Below are positions 3,718 to 20,624 of a stretch of DNA of 21,792 bases, piece by piece. Made by a program: the position numbers and the translations under genes. The notes beneath the pieces are model-generated. The model had not been told where the DNA came from and made no database searches. It saw only the letters and a program-made list of their open reading frames with translations. Each line of letters opens with the position of its first letter. Position 1 is the first letter of the stretch. The stretch spans positions 1 through 21,792 of IMG/VR virus record IMGVR_UViG_3300020190_000407. One strand, 5' to 3'. This stretch comes from a virus.

Positions 3718-4560
3718 ATGGATATTGCAAAACTCATTACGGATCGCATCATCGCAGAGCTTGAGGCAGGCACTGCGCCTTGGGTTAAACCTTGGTCAGA
3801 GGCATGCGAGGCTTACAACCCACTCTCAGGAACCGTGTACCGTGGCATCAACCAATTCTGGCTTGGGATGCACGGCATGGGACGTTCAAATGCCTGGATG
3901 ACGTTCAAGCAGGCAAGCGCCGCGCGTATGCGCATCAAGGCGGGTTCAAAAGGTGTTCCGGTCGTGTTCTGGAAAACCCTCGAAGTCGAGCGTACTAAGT
4001 CGAACGGTGAGGCGGAGACGGCCACGGTTCCCATGCTTCGCAGCTACTATGTGTTCAATGCAGACGATATCGAGGGTGCTGCATTCTCGCGCGACCGTGC
4101 AGCGTTGACCGGAACCATGGACAGTCGCGTCACTGCCGTTGTTGAGCGATTGTGTCTTGCGGGTGGTGTACAACTCGCTTCCGGTGCATTCTATAACGGT
4201 TCCCGTGACTGCATTGGCATGCCTGCATTCGGGGACTTTAGATCAGAGGCCGACTATGCAGCGACTTTGCTGCATGAATGCACTCACGCCACGGGCCACG
4301 CTTCCCGGCTGGATCGCAAGCTCGCCAACCGCTTTGGCACTGAAGCTTATGCCTACGAAGAACTCATCGCCGAGTTAGGCGCTGCAATGCTGTGTATGCG
4401 CACGGGAGTCGATGGCAAGCTCCAGCATGCATCCTACATCGCCTCATGGTTGCAAGTCCTGCGCGGTGACAAAACTGCAATCGTCAAGGCGGCGAGCGCT
4501 GCGCAAAAGGCGTGCGACTACCTCACCGCAACCCAAGCCGCCGAGGAACTCGCAGCGTAG
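3718..4560 (+). CDS. ardC: ArdC-type antirestriction protein (ssDNA-binding domain plus zincin domain)
   Basis: 280 residues. ArdC proteins protect incoming DNA from host restriction. They combine an N-terminal ssDNA-binding domain (formerly DUF1738) with a C-terminal metallopeptidase-like domain. Residues 1-115 fit the N-domain, with APWVKPW (20-26), NPLSG and YRGIN (41-45), the WMTFKQA strand (60-66), GSKGVPVVFWK (77-86) and YYVFNADDIEG (110-120). Residues 186-194 are HECTHATGH, the zinc-binding HExxH motif with a further His. EELIAELGA (214-222) supplies a likely third ligand. GGAAGGA precedes the ATG at 3718. As second gene of the early operon it fits the need to act soon after DNA entry. 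Confidence 0.9.
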   Translation: MDIAKLITDRIIAELEAGTAPWVKPWSEACEAYNPLSGTVYRGINQFWLGMHGMGRSNAWMTFKQASAARMRIKAGSKGVPVVFWKTLEVERTKSNGEAETATVPMLRSYYVFNADDIEGAAFSRDRAALTGTMDSRVTAVVERLCLAGGVQLASGAFYNGSRDCIGMPAFGDFRSEADYAATLLHECTHATGHASRLDRKLANRFGTEAYAYEELIAELGAAMLCMRTGVDGKLQHASYIASWLQVLRGDKTAIVKAASAAQKACDYLTATQAAEELAA

Positions 4561-4633: not shown

Positions 4634-4882
4634 ATGAAAACCACCACAGTTAAGATATCGGAAGGATTCCACTCCGTTCGGCCCATTACCCTGCGCATAC
4701 GGAATGACAAAATCACGCCGCACCAGCGGATGCGCCTGATGAAGCATATGTGCGGCATCAAGACCTGCACCTGCCAGCCATACCACGGTTGGCGCATCGA
4801 GGGACTGAATGATGGGTGGTTCTTGTTCTTGCTGAGCCATGCAGAATGGAGGGAATATAAAAATAGGCGGGATGCACGATGA
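4634..4882 (+). CDS. Small early protein of unknown function, Cys/His-containing
   Basis: 82 residues. The ATG at 4634 follows TTAAGGAG at good spacing. The first half is basic. Its middle has a cysteine cluster MCGIKTCTCQPYHGW, which may bind metal. The end is aromatic and basic (WFLFLLSHAEWREYKNRRDAR). No known family is recognised. It overlaps the next small gene by an ATGA junction, so the two are probably translationally coupled. Size and place between ardC and the regulator block are typical of early host-interaction genes, but no role can be assigned. Confidence 0.65.
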   Translation: MKTTTVKISEGFHSVRPITLRIRNDKITPHQRMRLMKHMCGIKTCTCQPYHGWRIEGLNDGWFLFLLSHAEWREYKNRRDAR

Positions 4883-4965
4883 AACGCTCCAGCACCCTTA
4901 CCCTCATCATCGGCGGAGCTTCGTTCGGAGCAGTCTTCGCCGTTATCTTGTTCGCCTTTATTTGA
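4879..4965 (+). CDS. 28-residue single-TM micro-protein
   Basis: The ATG at 4879 overlaps the stop of the previous gene (ATGA). The product begins MKRSSTLTLIIGGASFGAVF and continues hydrophobic to its end, that is, a short basic N-terminus followed by one membrane span. GGGATG upstream gives a weak ribosome site, and coupling to the upstream gene is likely. It is too short for family recognition. Support comes from the tight junction, the clear membrane pattern and the close spacing of the next gene. Confidence 0.45.
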   Translation: MKRSSTLTLIIGGASFGAVFAVILFAFI

Positions 4966-4976
4966 TAGGACATAGA

Positions 4977-5102
4977 ATGAACATCCGCTTTGAAAGAACG
5001 TCCTTTGGCTGGAAAGCGTATCATCGCCGAGGGAATGCTTTCGTCTACTTTGGGCATTTCCGCACTCAGCGCGAGGCCCGTGAAGCCCTAGCATCTGACT
5101 GA
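4977..5102 (+). CDS. 41-residue small basic early protein
   Basis: Begins MNIRFERTSFGWKAYHRRG and ends with a helix REAREALASD. TAGGA lies before the ATG at 4977, and it starts 11 bases after the previous stop. The pattern, two short beta strands with aromatic residues and then a charged helix, looks like a compact folded mini-protein. No family is recognised. A stable hairpin follows its stop codon, suggesting a transcript boundary here. Confidence 0.55.
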   Translation: MNIRFERTSFGWKAYHRRGNAFVYFGHFRTQREAREALASD

Positions 5103-5108
5103 TCCACC

Positions 5109-5137
5109 GGGGCTACGGCCCCCAACCCCTCCCACCC
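5109..5137. other. cTACGg tetraloop hairpin followed by a G-quadruplex motif on the minus strand
   Basis: GGGGC (5109-5113) pairs with GCCCC (5118-5122) around TACG, giving the exceptionally stable UNCG-class tetraloop in RNA, six bases after the stop of the 4977 gene. The minus strand of 5119-5137 has four G-runs (GGG-T-GGG-A-GGGG-TT-GGGGG), a strong G-quadruplex pattern. An eight-C run follows at 5151-5158. No T-tract follows the hairpin, so it may be an RNA processing or protection element or an atypical terminator. Confidence 0.4.
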
Positions 5138-5195
5138 ACCTATGCCTAATCCCCCCCCTCCAACCTTTTTCAAAACACATGGTAGGGGGGACCAT

Positions 5196-5402
5196 ATGGA
5201 TGTAGCGCCCATGCAACACTCTTTTTCCATACCCGCATCCGATGCAGACGAAACCCTCTTGGCAGAATGGAGATGCGCCCTCGTTGCCAGGATGCAACAC
5301 CTGCTCTCCGACTCCGTGCACCTCACCCAACCCGCTAGCGAGACCCTTCGAGATCCGGCACCCGTCCCCCCATACCGAAAACCTCACCCGCATTCGCAGT
5401 GA
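5196..5402 (+). CDS. Possible small protein, unknown
   Basis: 68 residues from an ATG at 5196 preceded by a GGGGGG run. The middle (DADETLLAEWRCALVARMQH) looks like a real amphipathic helix. The C-terminus is Pro-rich and low in complexity. An open frame also exists on the opposite strand, and the region has strong C-bias on the plus strand, so this may be chance. No family is recognised. Codon use is not clearly informative at this length. Confidence 0.35.
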   Translation: MDVAPMQHSFSIPASDADETLLAEWRCALVARMQHLLSDSVHLTQPASETLRDPAPVPPYRKPHPHSQ

Positions 5403-5634
5403 TGTGTTTTTGTGCTAAACGCACGCACGGTCTCTAGTTTATCAGGCGTATCAAAGAGTTGCCAGCTCTCTGACCCTCGGCGCTGGTCCCGATGCTTACC
5501 GTTTTTTCCTGTCCAGGACGGCTTGCAAGAAGTACCCCAAAGTTTGGCCCGTTTATCCGCTTCGCTCGACCGACAGCTTGCGAGGACTGGGTTATGGCCC
5601 CCTACTCGACACTCTACCCGCCAGCGAGACCCTT
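5331..5634 (+). repeat. Pair of 18-base direct repeats, one mismatch
   Basis: CCCGCTAGCGAGACCCTT (5331-5348) recurs as CCCGCCAGCGAGACCCTT (5617-5634), 286 bases apart. One copy is in the doubtful 5196 reading frame and the other in non-coding sequence. They may be traces of a local duplication or binding sites. Confidence 0.5.
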
Positions 5635-5737
5635 GTCAACACGCCAAACGGTCGATAGCATCCGATTATCGGCACCCTGTACGGATTATGGACCGTGGTA
5701 TCATCGAACTTCATCAAAACCAGAGCGAATTGCAGCG
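5403..5737 (+). promoter_or_regulatory. Intergenic region with candidate promoter and operator for the regulator block
   Basis: These 335 bases contain no convincing gene. TTGTCA (5633-5638), a 17-base spacer and TAGCAT (5656-5661) form a fair sigma70-like promoter. The 11-base palindrome CCGAT-T-ATCGG (5662-5672) lies where transcription would start, a classic place for autorepression. The downstream genes are the 5738 small protein and the XRE regulator. Promoter and operator are sequence-pattern inferences only. Confidence 0.35.
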
Positions 5738-5971
5738 ATGAGACTAAAAGATTTGGAAGACGGTGAAGTCTTCATCTTGTTTCGGACCGGGGACATTTTC
5801 AAGCTTAACTTTTCGCAGTTTATACAACCTCTTGGTACACTTTATCACTGCGTTTGCGTGAAAAGCGATTGGAAGGAACAAGTCGGGACAGAAATGCATT
5901 TGCATGGTCTCAGCCGCGTGATTCGCATCTCAAAGCAGAACGTGCGCCATTTAAAGGAGCTAACTCCATGA
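5738..5971 (+). CDS. Early paralogue A: small beta-rich domain shared by three early genes
   Basis: 77 residues starting MRLKDLEDGEVFILFRTG. It matches the 7146 gene and the C-terminal part of the 7643 gene in the pattern L-x2-L-x2-G-x2-F-x-L-x-R, then a Leu/Phe strand, then QPLGTLYHC, then GTEMHLHGL-x2-V. The repeated short strands suggest a small beta-barrel or SH3-like fold. The ATG at 5738 is chosen because it aligns exactly with the start of paralogue B; the frame opens much further upstream without support. It overlaps the XRE gene by ATGA, so the two are likely co-translated. Function unknown; DNA or protein binding would fit, as an inference. Confidence 0.75.
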   Translation: MRLKDLEDGEVFILFRTGDIFKLNFSQFIQPLGTLYHCVCVKSDWKEQVGTEMHLHGLSRVIRISKQNVRHLKELTP

Positions 5972-6387
5972 CCACAGAGAACGTGGATGCTATTAAATTT
6001 GGGGCTTTTGTGCGACGCATGCGCCTCGCGCGAAAACTCAGTCTGCGTGGCATGGCAAGAGCAATGCCGAAAATGAGCGCAAGTTACTTATCTCAAATCG
6101 AACAGGCAGGATGCCCACTGCCGACTGAACAACGCATTAAAGATCTAGCGCAAATCTTGGATGTCGATGCGGATGATCTGCTGGCACGTGCTGGTCGCAT
6201 CTCAACCGATCTTGTCAAGATCATTTGTCTTCATCCTTTAGAGTTTGCCAAACTGCTGCGCAACATGCAGGTCATGTCACCGAAGACCATCGCGTTGCTG
6301 GCCTGCGAAGCGCAACGTCTTGTAATGTTGGAGCATTCTGAGACCCATACCCCTCCTCAGGAAGAATGCAATGAGTCTGTTGACTGA
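5968..6387 (+). CDS. XRE-family helix-turn-helix transcriptional regulator
   Basis: 139 residues. Residues 12-74 form a Cro/C1-type HTH domain, with FVRRMRLARKLSLRGMARAM, the turn and recognition helix MSASYLSQIEQAG (36-48), and the closing helices RIKDLAQILDVDADDLLARAG. A short helical tail (P90-LEFAKLLRNM) follows, as in many small XRE regulators without a peptidase domain. AAAGGAG precedes the ATG at 5968, which overlaps the stop of the upstream gene. It probably represses an early or lysogeny promoter; candidate palindromic operators lie at 3431-3481 and 5662-5672. It has no visible RecA-cleavable domain, so induction would need another signal. Confidence 0.88.
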   Translation: MTTENVDAIKFGAFVRRMRLARKLSLRGMARAMPKMSASYLSQIEQAGCPLPTEQRIKDLAQILDVDADDLLARAGRISTDLVKIICLHPLEFAKLLRNMQVMSPKTIALLACEAQRLVMLEHSETHTPPQEECNESVD

Positions 6388-6850
6388 GTTGTTCGACGAA
6401 GCTCGGAGCGAAGTGCTCCAAGAAGACTGGGATAGATGCTTGTTGTCTGCGTGGAGGTCTCCCAAATTTCTTAGAACCGAGAGCGTGGTTGGGAAATTCC
6501 GCGACACGCATAAATTGACGAGAGAAGAGTTCTCAAAACTAAGAAGGGTGCCTCACTTTAGCAATCAATTTAAAACTCGCATTCCGCGTTTCGTGGCAGC
6601 GTACCTTCCCGATCTCAACGAGAAACTTTTTGGGTCAAACTTGTGCGACGAAGATCTCTTGGCGTTCATGCGCAACCTTGAAACTTTGCATCGGCCCTCT
6701 GATCACCGGAACAGCACAGAGGACTTCCGCGTTCGCAAGTCTGGATTAGACACCGATTCCGCAAACCGGCTGTCCGCAAAGATGTCTTCCTCAAAAAATT
6801 TCGCTCACTCACGCAGGTGGGAAACGGTTAAACCAGTTCGTGCGAAATGA
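6371..6850 (+). CDS. Early protein of unknown function following the XRE regulator
   Basis: 159 residues from an ATG at 6371, overlapping the XRE stop by 17 bases with AGGAAG upstream. The N-terminal 100 residues are helical and charged (MSLLTELFDEARSEVLQEDW). The segment LTREEFSKLRRVPHFSNQFK might be a second small HTH-like module, but this is uncertain. The last 50 residues are Ser/Arg/Asn-rich and look disordered. Tight overlap with the regulator suggests a shared role, for example as a partner or antirepressor, which is inference only. Confidence 0.7.
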   Translation: MSLLTELFDEARSEVLQEDWDRCLLSAWRSPKFLRTESVVGKFRDTHKLTREEFSKLRRVPHFSNQFKTRIPRFVAAYLPDLNEKLFGSNLCDEDLLAFMRNLETLHRPSDHRNSTEDFRVRKSGLDTDSANRLSAKMSSSKNFAHSRRWETVKPVRAK

Positions 6851-6861
6851 TGGGTATTGGT

Positions 6862-6890
6862 TTGATATTGTGTGTGACGATTAATATATT
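6862..6890 (+). promoter_or_regulatory. Candidate sigma70 promoter in an AT-rich gap
   Basis: TTGATA (6862-6867), a 17-base spacer and TATATT (6885-6890) each match the consensus at five of six positions. The gap is the most AT-rich stretch nearby. The predicted start near 6897 would fall at the ribosome site of the 6907 gene, leaving an almost leaderless message, which argues against the promoter driving that gene in the usual way. Confidence 0.3.
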
Positions 6891-6906
6891 TTAACAGGAG
6901 ATAAAG

Positions 6907-7146
6907 ATGGACAACTTCTCTGACAGCACCCGTGACGTTTTGCTTCGCTTGATGACCCGCGTTTCGGGTTTGGCTGCTAACCTCACTGAATCTCTTGTCG
7001 CAAAAGACATGGCGACCCTCCAGATCGATTGGCCCCGCCTGCAAACCGTGATGACAGCGCTCGACAAGCACCTCGATGCCTCGTTCGAGGCCGCCAAGGC
7101 ACGGTCACGCATCAAGACCCCCTTTGACGCCCAGGACGATGCGTGA
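6907..7146 (+). CDS. Small helical early protein, unknown
   Basis: 79 residues, almost entirely predicted helix: MDNFSDSTRDVLLRLMTRV, then LAANLTESLVAKDMATLQID and DKHLDASFEAAKARSRIK, ending in an acidic tail DAQDD. AACAGGAG precedes the ATG at 6907. Its stop overlaps the ATG of paralogue B (TGATG at 7144-7148), so the two are coupled. It may form a coiled-coil or helical bundle. No family is recognised. Confidence 0.75.
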   Translation: MDNFSDSTRDVLLRLMTRVSGLAANLTESLVAKDMATLQIDWPRLQTVMTALDKHLDASFEAAKARSRIKTPFDAQDDA

Positions 7147-7355
7147 TGAAGCTCTGCGAGCTGAACATCGGAGATCGCTTCATCCTATTGCGCAGTAAAG
7201 AAGAGTGGAAGCTTGTGCATTCGGAGTTCTTGCAACCGATTGGCACACTCTTCCTTTGCATCAATGCCGAATCGGGTGAAGAGGCGTATCTGCATGGACA
7301 GTGTCGCGTCGAGCGGTTGGTGTTGCGTGCGCCAAGAAAGGCTCAAAGGAATTGA
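7146..7355 (+). CDS. Early paralogue B: small beta-rich domain
   Basis: 69 residues starting MKLCELNIGDRFILLRSK. It is clearly related to the 5738 product: L-x-IGD-x-FILLR, then SEFLQPIGTLFLC, then GEEAYLHGQCRVERL. A GTG one codon earlier (7143) is possible, but the ATG at 7146 aligns with paralogue A and gives a TGATG coupling. This is the shortest copy and so defines the minimal domain, about 58 residues. No known family is recognised. Confidence 0.8.
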   Translation: MKLCELNIGDRFILLRSKEEWKLVHSEFLQPIGTLFLCINAESGEEAYLHGQCRVERLVLRAPRKAQRN

Positions 7356-7358
7356 ACA

Positions 7359-7646
7359 ATGACCATCAAAGCGCGTGTTTACGGTGGCGTGGAGATCGTC
7401 GGCATTACCCCGCCTGACTGCCACAGCCAATTTGACGGGGTGTTGGTGCAACTCATAGGTACAACCTTCCGGGACGGAAAATGGCAGCGTGCCGGCATGG
7501 AAATCGACATGAGTCAGAACGATGCACTGGATTTGGCCCTGGCGTTGTTTATTGCATCCGCGAAGCACGCCGATGAGACCGAACGCGCCTTGACGAAGTT
7601 TGCCAAGATGATCCAGCGACGTGTTGACAAACGAGGGAACAAATGA
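7359..7646 (+). CDS. Small early protein, unknown
   Basis: 95 residues from an ATG at 7359 after CAAAGGAA. The first half is beta-like and Gly-rich (VYGGVEIVGITPPDCHSQFD, then VLVQLIGTTFRDGKW). The second half is a long helix (DALDLALALFIASAKHADET) ending in a basic tail. It ends in an ATGA overlap with the next gene. Domain order beta then helix suggests a compact single domain. No family is recognised. Confidence 0.75.
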   Translation: MTIKARVYGGVEIVGITPPDCHSQFDGVLVQLIGTTFRDGKWQRAGMEIDMSQNDALDLALALFIASAKHADETERALTKFAKMIQRRVDKRGNK

Positions 7647-8128
7647 CCTACCGTGAGATGATGCAACAGGCGTTGGAGGCGCTGGACTCAGACAATCCTG
7701 ACATCCAATTACGGGCGGCAATCGCCTTGCGCGCAGCACTGGACCGGGAGCGCAATAAAACGTGGACGCCGGAACACTGGACAGAGTATGAACGAGGCAT
7801 TGTTGCTGCTGAGCGCGAGAAGGTCTCTCAGTTCATGAAGGATCGAGGATACGTAACTGGTCAATGCGACAGCATTGAAGCCTTGCTCAAACAACTTGGT
7901 TGGCAGATTGACCAACATCTAAAAAACGCTAGCGAAAAACCAAAACCAACGAGAGTATTTAGTCTGCAAGTCGGCGATACTTTTGTCTTGCGACGCACCA
8001 AACAACATTACGAATTGCTTGGGTTGAAATGGATTTCCGGTATGGGAACGCAGTACATTTGCCGCAACCTTGCAACGGGAGAGACCGTGCGATTGCACCA
8101 CAGCATGGCGATTGACAAACTCAAATGA
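7643..8128 (+). CDS. Two-part early protein with C-terminal copy of the triplicated domain
   Basis: 161 residues. Residues 1-95 are helical and charged (MTYREMMQQALEALDSDNPD, then TPEHWTEYERGIVAAEREK). Residues about 104-161 repeat the small domain of the 5738 and 7146 genes: FSLQVGDTFVLRRTK, then GMGTQYICRNLATGETVRLHH and a final AIDKLK. It is thus a fusion of a helical module to the shared domain. It has ATGA overlaps at both ends. The GxGTxYxC core is kept, while the QP of the other copies is replaced by SG. Confidence 0.8.
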   Translation: MTYREMMQQALEALDSDNPDIQLRAAIALRAALDRERNKTWTPEHWTEYERGIVAAEREKVSQFMKDRGYVTGQCDSIEALLKQLGWQIDQHLKNASEKPKPTRVFSLQVGDTFVLRRTKQHYELLGLKWISGMGTQYICRNLATGETVRLHHSMAIDKLK

Positions 8129-8355
8129 ACACAATGATTGCTAAAGAGACGCTAGCGCCGACCGTGCGCACGAAAGTCTATGCGTTGAAAGGGATCATGT
8201 ACCTGCCCTCATACACCGACCGCGCAATGTATGTCGGGCCAGGAAACCTTCGGGAGCGCCGAACCATCGCGGAAGCCGCACTCGTTGATCTCGAAGCAAG
8301 GGCACATTTCGAAATGCTCTGGCCTCGATCCTGGACTAACGTGGTGGATACTTGA
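8125..8355 (+). CDS. Small early protein, unknown
   Basis: 76 residues from an ATG at 8125 in ATGA overlap with the preceding stop; a second ATG at 8134 is an alternative start. It reads MNTMIAKETLAPTVRTKVYA and later LRERRTIAEAALVDLEARAH, a beta-strand region followed by a helix. No family is recognised. It ends 41 bases before the exonuclease gene. Confidence 0.65.
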   Translation: MNTMIAKETLAPTVRTKVYALKGIMYLPSYTDRAMYVGPGNLRERRTIAEAALVDLEARAHFEMLWPRSWTNVVDT

Positions 8356-8396
8356 AGCATCAACGAACTATTTCATTATTGAAAACGGGAGATTTT

Positions 8397-9317
8397 ATGA
8401 CGATGAGTGTACAAACCTTGACTGATGAGACTACCGACCCCTTTGCCCCTGCCTTGCGAAGACGCGCTATTTGGGCTACCGATGCGCGAAAGATCGCCCT
8501 CGGCAAGTCCGATGAAGTCTACGCGGAGAAAACTGGGATGATGGAGCGCCCAGATCTCAGCGATAATGAGGCCGCTCAATGGGGTCTAAAATTGCAAGAC
8601 ATCATCGGGCGTGAGGTCAGTCACCGCCTAAAAATGGAACTCAAGGAAGCCGATTACCAGCTTACCCACCCGAAGCATAATTGGATGAAGAGCCACTTCG
8701 ACTTTATCAGCTACGACGGGAAGACGCTTGTGGAAGTCAAGAACTATCATGCCAGCAAACGCAACAAGTTTGATATCCGCATGATGCCAGCCGAGGACCG
8801 CGCACAGTGCGTTCACGAGGCCGCAGTCCACGGAGTCTCCCGAGTCATCCTGGCTGTGCTGTTTGGAGGCCAAGAGTTGCATATCATTGACTCCGAAATC
8901 GTTGAGGCTGAGAAGGATGAACTCATCAAGACCGAGGCAGCACTCTGGGCTTCGATCACTGCAAAGACCCCGCCTCCCGCTACGTCTCCCGAAACAGCCC
9001 GCATTCTTTGGCCGCAATCTTCGCTTGGACATGTGGTGGCTGACGCTCGATTGGAGCAAATGTGCGCAGCTCTGAAGGCTATCAAGGACAACATAAACAA
9101 ACTGGAAAAGCAAGAAAAGGAGTACACCTCTGCCATCCAGACCGCCATGCAAGCAAATGGAAGTTTGGTGGCTTTCGACGGGACTGTACTTGCAACTTGG
9201 CACACTGCCAAATCCGGCAGGAGTTTTAACAGGGAATTGTTTCAGCAAACCCATCCGACTATGTACGAAAGTTTTGTCCGCGAAACACTTGGATCGCGGA
9301 GGTTTCTTCTCAAATGA
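8397..9317 (+). CDS. YqaJ/lambda-exonuclease-like recombination nuclease
   Basis: 306 residues. These 5'-3' exonucleases resect DNA ends for single-strand annealing recombination. The PD-(D/E)xK core is visible: the N-terminal RRRAIWATDARKIALGKSDE (21-40) with the Arg and Ser-Asp typical of YqaJ nucleases, NEAAQWGLKLQDIIGREV (57-74) with Glu59, HFDFISYDG (Asp102) and LVEVKNY (Glu113, Lys115). A coiled coil near AALKAIKDNINKLEKQEKE precedes a small C-terminal domain. The ATG at 8397 follows GGGAG; an upstream TTG at 8352 is less likely. It is next to a probable annealing protein, the usual exonuclease-annealase pair. Confidence 0.88.
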   Translation: MTMSVQTLTDETTDPFAPALRRRAIWATDARKIALGKSDEVYAEKTGMMERPDLSDNEAAQWGLKLQDIIGREVSHRLKMELKEADYQLTHPKHNWMKSHFDFISYDGKTLVEVKNYHASKRNKFDIRMMPAEDRAQCVHEAAVHGVSRVILAVLFGGQELHIIDSEIVEAEKDELIKTEAALWASITAKTPPPATSPETARILWPQSSLGHVVADARLEQMCAALKAIKDNINKLEKQEKEYTSAIQTAMQANGSLVAFDGTVLATWHTAKSGRSFNRELFQQTHPTMYESFVRETLGSRRFLLK

Positions 9318-10730: not shown

Positions 10731-10920
10731 AGAAACATGGCCTGAACTCATGGACGCGATGGACAAATTCCACGACAAACTGTTCCAGCAACTCCAACTA
10801 CGGGACAAGTTCCTCCTTCGTTTGCTTGACCCAGAAGACTTGGGATGGGGTGTAAGCGCAGAAGTAAGGAAGAAAGTAAAGCAATTTTTAACTTCAACAG
10901 GGATTAAAAATGAATCTTGA
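10717..10920 (+). CDS. Small early protein with TTG start
   Basis: 67 residues. The frame is open upstream, but the TTG at 10717 is the likely start because a perfect AAGGAGG (10704-10710) ends six bases before it. This also leaves a short 14-base overlap with the previous gene. The product begins MKSSEETWPELMDAMDKFHD and continues as a helix rich in Leu/Gln/Arg, ending in a basic tail. No family is recognised. A strong ribosome site with a weak start codon is notable. Confidence 0.65.
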   Translation: MKSSEETWPELMDAMDKFHDKLFQQLQLRDKFLLRLLDPEDLGWGVSAEVRKKVKQFLTSTGIKNES

Positions 10921-11269
10921 AATGATCAACAAACGTATTAGTGAACTGGAACTCCTTCGGGATACCTACCATCAGCGGGTTTCCGCGATGCAGCAGCGCA
11001 AGGAACAACTGGCGATCAATCGAGCGTCAAAGCAGAAAGCGCTCAAGGCGCAGCGCGTCCTCAAGTTGATGCATAACCTCGGCATCACCATCGAGGATCT
11101 GAACGTCGATATGACCTTGCATCCTGTGTTGCGATCAGGATACAAACTGCCCGCGAAGTACAAAGATCCTGAGACAGCTTACACTTGGTCAGGACGCGGG
11201 AAGAAGCCGCTTTGGTTGGTGGATCACCTCGCTGCTGGCCGCACCATCGAAGAATTCCGGGTGCAATGA
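10910..11269 (+). CDS. H-NS-family nucleoid protein encoded by the phage
   Basis: 119 residues. The N-terminal half (1-50) is a coiled-coil-like oligomerisation region (ISELELLRDTYHQRVSAMQQ). The C-terminus has the H-NS DNA-binding signature: KYKDPETAYTWSGRGKKP (83-100), then LWLVDHLAAGRTIEEFRV. H-NS proteins coat AT-rich DNA and silence foreign genes. A phage copy could silence host or phage genes, or interfere with host H-NS by forming mixed oligomers. It overlaps the preceding gene by 11 bases and the resolvase-like gene by ATGA, so it belongs to the early operon. The DNA-binding loop is intact, so it is probably not just a dominant-negative fragment. Confidence 0.88.
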   Translation: MNLEMINKRISELELLRDTYHQRVSAMQQRKEQLAINRASKQKALKAQRVLKLMHNLGITIEDLNVDMTLHPVLRSGYKLPAKYKDPETAYTWSGRGKKPLWLVDHLAAGRTIEEFRVQ

Positions 11270-11622: not shown

Positions 11623-11649
11623 CCCCGCTTAACGGCGGGGTTTTCTTTT
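11623..11649 (+). terminator. Rho-independent terminator of the early operon
   Basis: CCCCGC (11623-11628) pairs with GCGGGG (11635-11640) around TTAACG, followed by TTTTCTTTT (11641-11649). An alternative stem CCCGCC/GGCGGG uses the upstream C-run. It ends rightward early transcription. On the minus strand no U-tract follows, so it should act in one direction only. The stop codon of the converging last late gene lies in its loop. Confidence 0.88.
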
Positions 11650-11775
11650 GGCGGTGCGCTCCGACTGGATGAACGCCTCACGCGTCGGATACCCGACCTG
11701 ACCCGGACGCTTGGCTGGCAGACCCATCTTGCGTCGTCGGTTGATGTTGTAGTACAGCCCTTTCTTCACCGGCAT
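11629..11775 (-). CDS. 48-residue basic protein, last gene of the late operon
   Basis: Begins MPVKKGLYYNINRRRKMGLP and ends in a cluster of Lys/Arg, giving a strongly basic product. AAGGAG lies six bases before the ATG at 11775. Small basic proteins of this MPxKKGLYxNIN kind recur near the ends of phage late regions, but I know of no function. Its TAA (11629-11631) falls in the loop of the opposing terminator. It overlaps the upstream gene by 10 bases. Confidence 0.65.
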   Translation of the reverse strand: MPVKKGLYYNINRRRKMGLPAKRPGQVGYPTREAFIQSERTAKRKPRR

Positions 11776-11996
11776 CCCCATCTCCTTCGCGCTGCTTTGC
11801 CGCGTTCACCCGTCCATCCCCGACTCCGAGCACAGAACGACTTGTGCCTCGGGTTGTTGGGATCTTTGGTCGGGGCTTTCAAATTGTGACCCGCTGCCTT
11901 CGCTTTCGCCCTCCCCTTGGCCGTCAACCCTGCACCGCGAGAGACAGGCAACTTCTCCCCGCGACCGACTGACAGACTCGGGAAAGACTTCCTCAC
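11766..11996 (-). CDS. Small basic phage protein (DUF6321-like)
   Basis: 76 residues from a GTG at 11996 that overlaps the stop of the upstream gene. The core SRGAGLTAKGRAKAKAAGHN, then KSFCARSRG and a final RRWGC, matches my recollection of a widespread small phage family (DUF6321), but I cannot verify the name. It is rich in Arg/Lys/Gly and probably binds nucleic acid or is packaged with DNA, which is inference. An in-frame stop (TGA) overlaps the start of the next gene. Confidence 0.7.
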   Translation of the reverse strand: MRKSFPSLSVGRGEKLPVSRGAGLTAKGRAKAKAAGHNLKAPTKDPNNPRHKSFCARSRGWTGERGKAARRRWGCR

Positions 11997-12334
11997 AAAC
12001 CCTCACCCGGTGTGATGTAGACCAGAGACGTTCCCGACGCCACAATGCCCGAGACATAGAGCGTTGATTGCGCTGCGATGGACGCCTGCGGCACCGAGAA
12101 CACCTGCGTCTGGTTAGTGTGCAGGACCATAGAGTCCGATGGCGTACCGGACACAGGAAACGCTGCCGCTGCTCCTGTCGTCGCACTGAACCGTATCGCC
12201 GCTTCTGCGCCGCCGTTGTGAATTCGGACTTGATTGCACGGCGTATACGCATTCACGGCCACCTCGGCAGACGTTGTCCCAAGGTTCAGACGATAGGTCT
12301 GGCCCATCGCTTGGAATGCTGTCGTGTTAGCCAC
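11993..12334 (-). CDS. Small beta-rich late protein, paralogue of the 21380 gene
   Basis: 113 residues from a GTG at 12334. The sequence is Thr/Ala/Ser-rich beta sandwich-like, with an internal QVRIHNGG strand and the C-terminal VYITPGEGL. The 21380 product has the same layout: QYRIINAS in the middle and MYITPGTGS at the end. The two probably arose by duplication and are likely virion surface or accessory proteins, though which part of the virion is unknown. It has short overlaps with both neighbours (8 and 4 bases). Confidence 0.75.
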   Translation of the reverse strand: MANTTAFQAMGQTYRLNLGTTSAEVAVNAYTPCNQVRIHNGGAEAAIRFSATTGAAAAFPVSGTPSDSMVLHTNQTQVFSVPQASIAAQSTLYVSGIVASGTSLVYITPGEGL

Positions 12335-17168: not shown

Positions 17169-20100
17169 TTAGATCCTTAATGCTTTGCGCAGCTTGAGAC
17201 TGCGAATGTTCCACACAGGTTGCTGTTCTTCTTCCGGCGTTCCGTACACACCTTCTCCAGGCTCTTCTGACAATGCTACGCGAGTCGGCGTCAGTTGTGA
17301 AGCACCTACCAACCTTGTTCCTGGCGGGACACGCACTTTTGGAACAGTGGCCGGACGAATCACAAGAGGATCTAAGACGTTGATGTCTGTCGTAATGTCT
17401 GTGATAGGCGGTTCTTCAAACTCTGGCAGTGTAATTTCCTCACCTTCTACTGGTGGAACAGTTGGCGTACCAATGTTGAAGAACGGATCGTCAATAAGCT
17501 CTGGAGGATACTCCAAATCTGGGAACGGTATTGGTTCTCCTTCGGTTTCTGGAATATTGGGCGGTTGCACTTCAATTTCCACCGGAGGTACTATTTCTGG
17601 GGGAGGCACAAACTCTGGCGGCAGTATTGGTGCGCCTTCCGTCGGCGGACTCGGGATTGGTTGTACCTGAATATCCGGTAAGGGAAGCGGAAACGGCAGA
17701 GGGTCAACAAAGGGAAACGGTAACGGCTCTCCTTCTGGTTGAGGCTGCGGTTGTGGTTGTACCTGAATATCCGGTAGGGGCAGAGGTATTGGAAGAGGCT
17801 GAACAAAAGGAAATGGAAGAGGCTCTCCTTCCGGCTTAGGTTGAGGCTGAGGCTGTACTTGGATATCGGGTAACGGAATCGGTTGCACAACAGGATCAAC
17901 AAAAGGAAATGGAAGAGGATCTCCTTCCGGCTTTACTTCTGGTTTATCCTTTCCTTCTGGTCCTGGCAGAGGCAGAGGTAGCGGCAAACCGCCCGGTTTT
18001 TGTGATGGACCCGCGTCCGGCCTCGTCTGTGGTGCAACGTCTGCAACCGTTGTTGTCGCTGTGCCCGTTGGCACATCCACGCGTACTTGCTCCCCTACTT
18101 GCAGCTGTCGCTGTGTTGCCGGATCGACCGCACGCACAGGAACCAACTCCCCGCTCGGTTGTAAAACAAACGCGGTGTTGTTTGCTGCATTGACATCAAT
18201 CACCGTGCCTCTTGCTCGTGCAGGATTTTGTTCTTGTTCCGGGGTTTGCCCTGTAGGCGTAGTATCCGTAACCGTAAATCTACCTGTCGTTGGATCCAAA
18301 CTACCAATGTCTTTGCCTCCAACAGTGACGCGGTTTCCAATAATCACGGTTCCGGCGTCTACGCCAGCAGTGCGGTCGCGGTCGCTTGGCAACAGGTTCT
18401 GAGGTAATTTGCTCAACAAGTCCGCGTCGTACGTAAAAGCACCTGTTGCAGGACGCACCTTCAAACCTTCATTCGTCAACACTATTGCCATTCTGGTGTC
18501 TGGATCTACGCTGATCACCACCCCTTGGCTAGGCAGCGTCGGGCGCACTTCAGGTTGGGGTTGTGGATCGGGCTGAGGCTGAGGCTGAGGTTGCGGAACT
18601 GCCGTGCTACGGCTCGGTAATACGTTGATCACCTCTGGAGAAATAAGGATGTCTGGATCTGGCGGCACTCGTCTTCCGGCCACTACCACACGGTTGGTAA
18701 CCTCTTCCGGGTTAATATTCGGATTTGTCGCCTGCTGATTCAACGCATCGGCAATTGGTTTTGCGTCCTCCCGCTCTGCAAAAAATCCTATCATTGGGCC
18801 AACTGCTGTTGGTCCTGTCGTGATGACAATTCCAAGCACCGCGGCAAGTTGCCGAATCACACTTGATCCTGCAATCGCTGCTGCCGTTTCTGGGGCTACT
18901 GCTTCTATTGCTTGCACCACTCTTGGGAGCGCGTACCTTGCAAGCACTGCGGCTGCTTCGCGAGCTGCTGCGGACTCGGCAGCGCTGAGAGCAACTCCTA
19001 CGGCAGGAGCCAACGCCAATTGCGGAAGTTCCCCAGACGCCAGCGCTTGTTGCCGCGCATCTGCAAGGATAGAACTTACTGAAAGCTCTGCTTGTATTTG
19101 TGTGTACGGATCAGGTGCTGGAACGGGTGTTGGTGTAACCGGCGCTTCCCCTATGAATCCTGCTCTACTTACAGCACTGTCACGGCGGACTCTCTCCTGC
19201 TCCGCTGCTCCACCCAGGCCGCGTGACAACCCTGCAATCGCCGACGCACTGACATCCGCTCCTGTTGCCAGTGCTTGTACCGCACTTGTCGCAGCCGAAA
19301 CAATGCCGCTGTCAAGCACGCGATCTCCTGTGATAGACACCCCACTTAAATTCTGCACTGCGCCTGTTTGAATCAATGAATTGGCAAGCGCATCCTCAAC
19401 TGGCTGCCCTGTAAGCGCCGCTGTGGCTACAGAACGCACCGCATTGTCAACGTAAGGATTACCTGTAAAGTTGGGCACAATGGTTTGCACACCCGCTGTC
19501 GCCACTGCGTTCCGTATTGCTTTCTCTACCGGAACACCCGATGCGACTTGCAACCCTGCTTGAATGATGGCATTCCCAACTACTGTCGCTGCCGCCGCAG
19601 GAACACCCAGGGCTGTTCCTAATGCCGCTCCTGCCCCTGGAACAGCGATGTTGAGGGCAAACGCTACAAGGGGAACAATGGTCGCCCTATCACTGGTGTC
19701 GATGCCCTCAGTGGAAAAGCGTGGCTTGCCATCTGCACCGATATCTAACGCATAACGCGTTCCACCTCCTAATTCACTTCCTGTAAACGTGTTTCCGAGG
19801 TTTATTTCTTGTCCGGTCGGGCCTACACTTGCGCTTCTTGTTTGATAATACCCGTCTCCCGCATCACTAGTCGGAACAAACTCCGACACTTCCCCTTTTT
19901 TAATTTGACTAACGTCTGTGATTCCGGCGTTTAACAGGTTCCGCGCCATGTCTAGAATTACCATTTGCGCGGCGTTCGGCGTCTGTCCGAATAGCTTGGC
20001 CGCCTCGACTGCATTGAACCCAATGTTGATAGACTCTGGGTCATTGGTTAAGGCGTCACGGACATCATTCCCAAATGCGCTTCCCGCAAACTGCGTATCC

Positions 20101-20624
20101 AGATTCGGCACAATCTGGTTGTAGAGCTTGATCAGGTCTGACGCGTTGTAGGATTTCCCTGTTTCCGCATCTTTGAGTTGCAGGCTGGCAATCGGACTTT
20201 GTTTTGTCTCCTCAGCGGCAATACTCTGACGTTCATTCGCTAAATAATTGTCCACCGACTGTTGTGTATATCCCGTAGCCTCTGCAATACGCTCATTACT
20301 TATCCCATATTGTTCTGCTGCGGTCGCAATGACCCGAGCTTTATCTGCATCCGATCCAGTTCCTGCAAGTACGTCTTGAATGAATGTATTAATTTGTTCA
20401 TCTGACACTGAGGGCAATGGCGCAGTGGCAGAGGCAGGAGGTGGAGGTTCAAGATATGCATCGACTATGTCTTGGCTGTATCCCGTTGCTTGCGAAATTT
20501 GTTCATTACTGATTCCATAGGCTTGTGCTGCCGCATTGATCGTCGCGGCTTTTTCCGCATCTGACCCAGACCCCGAAAGCACCATTGCAACGTAGGCGGC
20601 GACATCTTCGTTTGAAATAGCCAT
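17169..20624 (-). CDS. Large repeat-rich virion protein, probable ejection or tail-tip protein
   Basis: 1151 residues, the largest gene here. Domains in order: two ungapped 56-residue helical repeats (3-58, 73-128) joined by a Pro linker; a polar region to 313; a hydrophobic Gly/Ala-rich helical zone (314-475) that could interact with membranes; a second hydrophobic zone (535-615); a Pro-Gln tract (677-691); two related beta segments GVVISVDPD (701) and GTVIDVNAA (806); then six Pro-rich 32-residue repeats (900-1091) and a basic tail. No enzyme motif is seen. GAGGTTGC precedes the ATG. Downstream genes are ejection-type proteins, so a role in DNA delivery is inferred. Confidence 0.8.
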   Translation of the reverse strand: MAISNEDVAAYVAMVLSGSGSDAEKAATINAAAQAYGISNEQISQATGYSQDIVDAYLEPPPPASATAPLPSVSDEQINTFIQDVLAGTGSDADKARVIATAAEQYGISNERIAEATGYTQQSVDNYLANERQSIAAEETKQSPIASLQLKDAETGKSYNASDLIKLYNQIVPNLDTQFAGSAFGNDVRDALTNDPESINIGFNAVEAAKLFGQTPNAAQMVILDMARNLLNAGITDVSQIKKGEVSEFVPTSDAGDGYYQTRSASVGPTGQEINLGNTFTGSELGGGTRYALDIGADGKPRFSTEGIDTSDRATIVPLVAFALNIAVPGAGAALGTALGVPAAAATVVGNAIIQAGLQVASGVPVEKAIRNAVATAGVQTIVPNFTGNPYVDNAVRSVATAALTGQPVEDALANSLIQTGAVQNLSGVSITGDRVLDSGIVSAATSAVQALATGADVSASAIAGLSRGLGGAAEQERVRRDSAVSRAGFIGEAPVTPTPVPAPDPYTQIQAELSVSSILADARQQALASGELPQLALAPAVGVALSAAESAAAREAAAVLARYALPRVVQAIEAVAPETAAAIAGSSVIRQLAAVLGIVITTGPTAVGPMIGFFAEREDAKPIADALNQQATNPNINPEEVTNRVVVAGRRVPPDPDILISPEVINVLPSRSTAVPQPQPQPQPDPQPQPEVRPTLPSQGVVISVDPDTRMAIVLTNEGLKVRPATGAFTYDADLLSKLPQNLLPSDRDRTAGVDAGTVIIGNRVTVGGKDIGSLDPTTGRFTVTDTTPTGQTPEQEQNPARARGTVIDVNAANNTAFVLQPSGELVPVRAVDPATQRQLQVGEQVRVDVPTGTATTTVADVAPQTRPDAGPSQKPGGLPLPLPLPGPEGKDKPEVKPEGDPLPFPFVDPVVQPIPLPDIQVQPQPQPKPEGEPLPFPFVQPLPIPLPLPDIQVQPQPQPQPEGEPLPFPFVDPLPFPLPLPDIQVQPIPSPPTEGAPILPPEFVPPPEIVPPVEIEVQPPNIPETEGEPIPFPDLEYPPELIDDPFFNIGTPTVPPVEGEEITLPEFEEPPITDITTDINVLDPLVIRPATVPKVRVPPGTRLVGASQLTPTRVALSEEPGEGVYGTPEEEQQPVWNIRSLKLRKALRI
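17352..17927 (-). repeat. Six tandem 96-base (32-residue) repeats
   Basis: Each unit of residues 900-1091 begins with Glu-Gly, then usually a Pro-rich segment. Units 1-3 (17640-17927) are nearly identical, with PLPFPFV, then PLPDIQVQP. Units 4-6 are diverged but keep the exact length and the EG start, with no insertions or deletions. Constant length across divergence suggests selection on structure, not drift of a simple Pro-rich tract. Confidence 0.85.
20241..20618 (-). repeat. Two 56-residue protein repeats at the N-terminus of the 1151-residue protein
   Basis: Residues 3-58 and 73-128 align without gaps. Shared features are a VL-[SA]-G-x-GSDA-[ED]-KA block, then [AQ]-YGISNE-[QR]-I, then ATGY-[ST]-Q and a final YL. 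The region between is a 14-residue Pro/Ala linker. Each unit probably folds as a small helical bundle. Confidence 0.9.

Follow-up and report, generated by a model that had tools for sequence, protein, structure and literature searches.

Why does a freshwater phage carry what looks like the same small domain in three closely spaced genes, and what might such a domain bind? The window (i.e. the whole stretch of DNA analyzed here) spans 21,792 bases and is a linear fragment (21.8 kb) from a virus record, and IMG/VR contig 3300020183_000766 is 99.99% identical to it across 16,052 bases. A sequence-only reading of this DNA had noticed a recurrent motif in the products of the genes at 5738 and 7146 and in the C-terminus of the product at 7643, and had proposed an undescribed domain, possibly a beta-barrel, that combines with different partners. 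All three copies, hereafter A, B and C, were found at these places.

The three genes are on the plus strand, in a segment (4634–8355) bordered on the left by an ArdC-type anti-restriction protein gene (3718–4560, plus strand; Pfam ArdcN, E = 8e-31; MPTase-PolyVal, E = 6e-41; PHROG anti-restriction, E = 1.5e-70) and on the right by a YqaJ/RecE-like recombination exonuclease gene (8352–9317, plus strand; PHROG 434, E = 5e-42; Pfam YqaJ, E = 3e-8). Copy A is a free-standing domain of 77 amino acids (5738–5971). It lies beside the gene of an XRE-type helix-turn-helix regulator (5968–6387, plus strand; Pfam HTH_31, E = 1e-11), as the sequence-only reading had it, the stop codon of A overlapping the XRE start codon (ATGA). 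An early ORF without a family match (6371–6850, plus strand) separates the regulator from the cluster around copy B. A weakly supported promoter-like site (6862–6890, plus strand; 10 of 12 positions matching) lies upstream of a gene pair in this cluster, namely a 79-aa ORF (6907–7146, plus strand) and copy B, a free-standing domain of 69 amino acids (7146–7355). Copy C belongs to a 161-aa protein (7643–8128) that follows a 95-aa ORF (7359–7646, plus strand). The start codons of B and C overlap the stop codons of the ORFs at 6907 (TGATG) and 7359 (ATGA), respectively. Because of these overlaps, A, B and C are each likely to be coupled in translation to a different neighbor gene. Beyond the exonuclease, the plus strand also encodes a PDDEXK nuclease that matches a Holliday-junction-resolvase PHROG, as well as an H-NS-like protein (10910–11269; Pfam H-NS C-terminal domain, E = 7e-15). 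The gene content suggests that A, B and C are early genes. Models of defense systems gave only generic helix-turn-helix matches, to the XRE protein. A 25-nt direct repeat (5324–5348 and 5610–5634; 88% identical, 286 nt apart) was also observed upstream of copy A in a stretch without assigned genes; it may serve the XRE protein as an operator or as a pair of regulatory sites.

When the whole record was searched with copy B, exactly three places matched: the query's own gene, A at 45% identity (E = 1e-10) and C at 30% identity (E = 9e-10). BLASTP gave E = 8e-13 for B against C and E = 1e-5 for A against C, and Smith-Waterman z scores against 2,000 shuffles were 22.6 (A–B), 20.1 (B–C) and 8.3 (A–C). 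The alignment and profile that the sequence-only reading had called for bore out its claim. Profiles were built from four sequences (A, B, C and one outside homolog), each time without the copy being scored, and the omitted copy scored 34.2, 60.8, 65.5 and 74.9 bits, the maxima of 5,000 shuffles being 8.9–10.2. The alignment of copies A and B with the C-terminal part of C spans about 57 residues, with 12 columns invariant in all four sequences (L6, G9, F12, L14, R16, L23, G33, T34, C38, G44, L49 and H50). These scores show that the three products carry one homologous domain. The proposed three-element motif held in general, except that the third element of A reads GT-x3-LH instead of GE-x3-LH and is preceded by six extra residues, which are inserted after predicted strand 3 and before strand 4. 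No further ORF was significant in a search of the whole window for a fourth copy.

The fold was modeled with AlphaFold2 for copy B, the only copy modeled, from a 4-row alignment that included the A and C sequences. The mean pLDDT was 89.4 (93–96 at residues 1–60) and the pTM 0.71; four of the five models had a pLDDT of 88–89 and the fifth 48. Five strands were predicted (residues 11–14, 19–29, 33–40, 46–50 and 54–58), and these have lengths suitable for an SH3/Sm-type barrel within about 60 residues. The beta-barrel that had been raised as one possibility stands as a small all-beta, five-strand prediction for copy B, its closure being suggested by the strand order and lengths in the model. The domain (about 57 residues) is most likely a closed small barrel of the SH3/Sm type. 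Since the A and C sequences entered the alignment, the B model is not independent proof of a common fold, and the agreement of A and C with it would follow from their homology.

As had been suggested, the domain appears to be undescribed. No family in Pfam, PHROGs, NCBIfam, PADLOC or PDB sequence searches matched it, and when 50,697 phage records and 72,556 plasmid records were searched with tblastn, no convincing relative emerged (none at all in the plasmids). Pattern scans of 2.9 million viral contigs recovered only the copies of this phage and those of one further phage type, represented by four contigs (3300020179_000285, 3300020183_000104, 3300020083_000907 and 3300020190_000542). Two pattern scans of genome contigs detected no relative of the domain; the sole match there to the N-terminal module of C (module 1, see below) was a weak one in an Elusimicrobia MAG. 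As the scans require short near-exact stretches, distant relatives may escape them. With two phage types carrying it, the domain is rare and, at the sensitivity of these searches, not widespread, and we regard it as a new, unannotated family. Several weak matches were considered, and most of them were rejected. Delftia phage PhiW-14 gp141 matched by tblastn over 67 residues (E = 0.1) and by profile over only 28 columns (E = 0.015), probably by chance. A match in Salmonella phage KE31 (E = 1) was antisense to an annotated gene and was attributed to chance. Klebsiella, Listeria and other weak matches to copy C (E = 0.6–8) covered short stretches, several of them in tail-sheath genes. A hand-made consensus matched phrog_7431 over its full length at E = 0.11, but no real copy did, and matches to phrog_26863 and PGM1_C were partial and below threshold.

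Copy C, which the sequence-only reading had described as a fusion to a helical module, is a mosaic of three parts, and its N-terminal part probably forms a helical stem, judging from its residues. Module 1 (aa 1–36, MQQALEALDSDNPDIQLRAAIALRAAL; 7643–7750, plus strand) is common to many viral contigs and was found in about 30 fetched viral loci with other C-termini. Module 2 (aa 37–98, TWTPEHW...EREKVSQFMKDRGYVTG...; 7751–7936, plus strand) recurs in other phages with other N-termini, including Limnohabitans phage DC33, and also with other C-termini. Module 3 (aa 105–161; 7955–8125, plus strand) is the shared beta domain. A homologous gene in a 53-kb phage contig (G002), which has a single copy of the domain, joins module 1 straight to the domain without module 2. 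The two genes differ by 195 nt (65 codons) in frame, and their DNA is 82% identical over 94 nt and 68% identical over 146 nt on the two sides of this length difference. Their domains are 59% identical in amino acid sequence, and the remainder of the two phages has almost nothing in common. In the domain region, pN was 0.23 and pS 0.72; this excess of pS, despite the saturation of synonymous sites, indicates that the domain of C is under purifying selection. The expectation that the domain recombines with different partners is supported. It is free-standing in A and B and carried by a mosaic in C, and it thus serves as one of the heads within a wider collection of parts that small phage proteins exchange.

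Other modular arrangements were seen in the fetched loci. The 53-kb contig has two consecutive genes (locus L007, 5631–5999 and 5989–6294) that both open with an ALEAL-type module, the second bearing the beta domain. Small phage proteins in loci L036–L070 and L084 are composed of recurrent modules in many combinations (ALEALDSDNPDIQ, PVAW..PLYT, WVGLTDEEI, AKLKEKN, AIRARG, WMI.RGYATG and WTxEHW), and no Pfam family covered those of them that were searched. In the window, a 1151-aa protein encoded on the minus strand (17169–20624) contains a repeat of about 56 residues twice near its N-terminus (aa 8–63 and 78–134; ISNE..YV..VL.G.GSDAEKA...YGISNE.I..ATGY), which also occurs in a large ORF of the 53-kb contig and has weak Pfam HTH matches. 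Minus-strand frames at 11632–12002 show 44–53% protein similarity to an ORF of that contig (L028, 9047–9595), this being one of the few other pieces common to the two phages.

Judged by the terminase, which is 72% identical, the nearest records in the phage collection are MW202825 and MW202753, circular genomes of 34 and 36 kb assembled from Manatee Spring water, the former flagged UNVERIFIED_CONTAM in its record. The YqaJ exonuclease is kept in both (46–50%) and ArdC in MW202753 only (44%). Neither genome has a match to any gene that the window carries between 4634 and 8355, the domain copies included, and the interval between ArdC and the exonuclease in MW202753 is occupied by different small modular genes. 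The three copies therefore lie in an accessory segment that varies among related phages and adjoins the anti-restriction gene. Such a location is compatible with a possible role in host interaction.

We tentatively favor, without quite giving it an even chance, the explanation that the domain is a portable binding domain in a fast-changing early accessory segment, used free in A and B and as the C-terminal head of a mosaic of swappable modules in C. The barrel would bind a single class of partner, in all likelihood a protein of the host or of the phage. Oligomerization or a second contact would come from the helical part of C, and A and B, whether monomeric or in small assemblies, might target these partners or related ones. 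These proteins might have a role in host takeover. A protein seems the more likely ligand than nucleic acid, with a modest preference, since charge is not conserved among the copies and the precedents of the same architecture discussed below act, or are thought to act, on proteins.

Small barrels are often nucleic-acid binders, and the domain may instead recognize phage or host RNA or single-stranded DNA in the manner of Sm, KOW or cold-shock proteins, with C tethering it by the stem. This is the less probable but still plausible alternative. The domain of C and its homolog in the 53-kb contig have a pI of 10, A and B have basic tails, and the operon includes the exonuclease, the H-NS-like protein and the Holliday-junction-type nuclease. 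However, once its tail is left out, the core of B is acidic (pI 5.6), which shows that charge is not a conserved property of the domain, and sequence searches linked the domain to no nucleic-acid-binding family and to no PDB chain. It is unlikely that the domain is a module for self- or cross-association, by which A, B and C would bind each other, and A (coupled to XRE) and B would modulate the regulator or a complex of C. Three close-set homologs with overlapping start and stop codons, A lying directly 5′ of XRE, would suit such an arrangement, but their mutual identity is only 30–45%, and the single copy in the 53-kb contig means that association of three copies cannot be the basic function. 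That the copies are recent redundant duplications without a selected function is very improbable. The segment is indeed variable and missing in relatives, but DNA identity between A and B is only 54% across 43 codons, which marks the copies as old by their divergence, the 12 invariant residues and open frames have been kept, and C bears the mark of purifying selection. Chance similarity, for which one could invoke the shortness of the proteins and the degenerate motif element of A, is practically negligible given leave-one-out scores of 34–75 bits against at most 10.2 in 5,000 shuffles.

A bolder form of the favored explanation, which we consider rather doubtful, is that the domain founds a new family of adaptors for host takeover or counter-defense, with the barrel serving as free inhibitors in A and B and as an exchangeable head in C. 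If so, one binding solution would be aimed at several partners through shuffled stems. The finding brings to light a domain family that has no annotation, and it clearly illustrates how modules are shuffled among small early proteins of phages, which are usually left "hypothetical". Should the target be a host or defense protein, the three natural versions in one genome and the fourth in another phage would provide a comparison set for finding it.

Among known systems, the SH3/Sm-type small beta-barrels resemble the domain in size (about 60 aa), in their five strands as predicted for copy B, in the L-x-x-G-D-x-F start and in the glycine turns between strands 2 and 3 and strands 3 and 4. No profile similarity to any described SH3-like family and no sequence similarity to their members were detected in Pfam, PHROGs or PDB sequence searches.

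Lambda Ea22 and phage Nip are taken as functional precedents, not as relatives. In Ea22, an early protein, a coiled-coil stem carries a variable C-terminal domain, for which contact with an unknown host protein has been proposed (PMC10834534). Like C, it is encoded by an early gene near an exonuclease and combines a short N-terminus, a helical stem and a portable, very variable C-terminal domain (PMC10834534, PMC7093339). The same layout is seen in C, whose gene stops some 0.2 kb short of the YqaJ ORF, its stem helicity and early expression being predicted, and the swappable C-terminal head has its counterpart in the different module content of the same gene in the 53-kb contig. Further hallmarks of the Ead/Ea22-like proteins are a tetrameric state and a pro-lysogenic effect. 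However, the C-terminal domain of Ea22 forms a dimer of mixed alpha-beta structure, whereas that of C is predicted to be all-beta with five strands, and a Pfam scan of the 161-aa protein detected neither Ead_Ea22 nor DUF551, the only match being YihI below threshold. For all the likeness in layout and position, C is therefore not a member of the Ead/Ea22-like proteins.

Nip of phage phi3T, an early product for which two SH3-like domains are predicted, binds and inhibits a host NADase, contacting the TIR domain of SpbK (PMC11984713). A, B and C share with it the early phage origin, and copy B also the SH3-like prediction, which for Nip has itself low to moderate confidence; Nip acts by binding a host protein (PMC11984713). 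Unlike them, Nip has 279 amino acids and an HU-dimerization-like domain. Finally, Smug et al. (2023) reported that unrelated phage proteins share and swap domains (PMC10684548). The abstract of that work puts the weight on receptor-binding proteins, endolysins and replication proteins, whereas the present proteins are small early ones with no assigned function; C, its homolog in the 53-kb contig and the related modular proteins are a clear instance of such mosaicism (PMC10684548).
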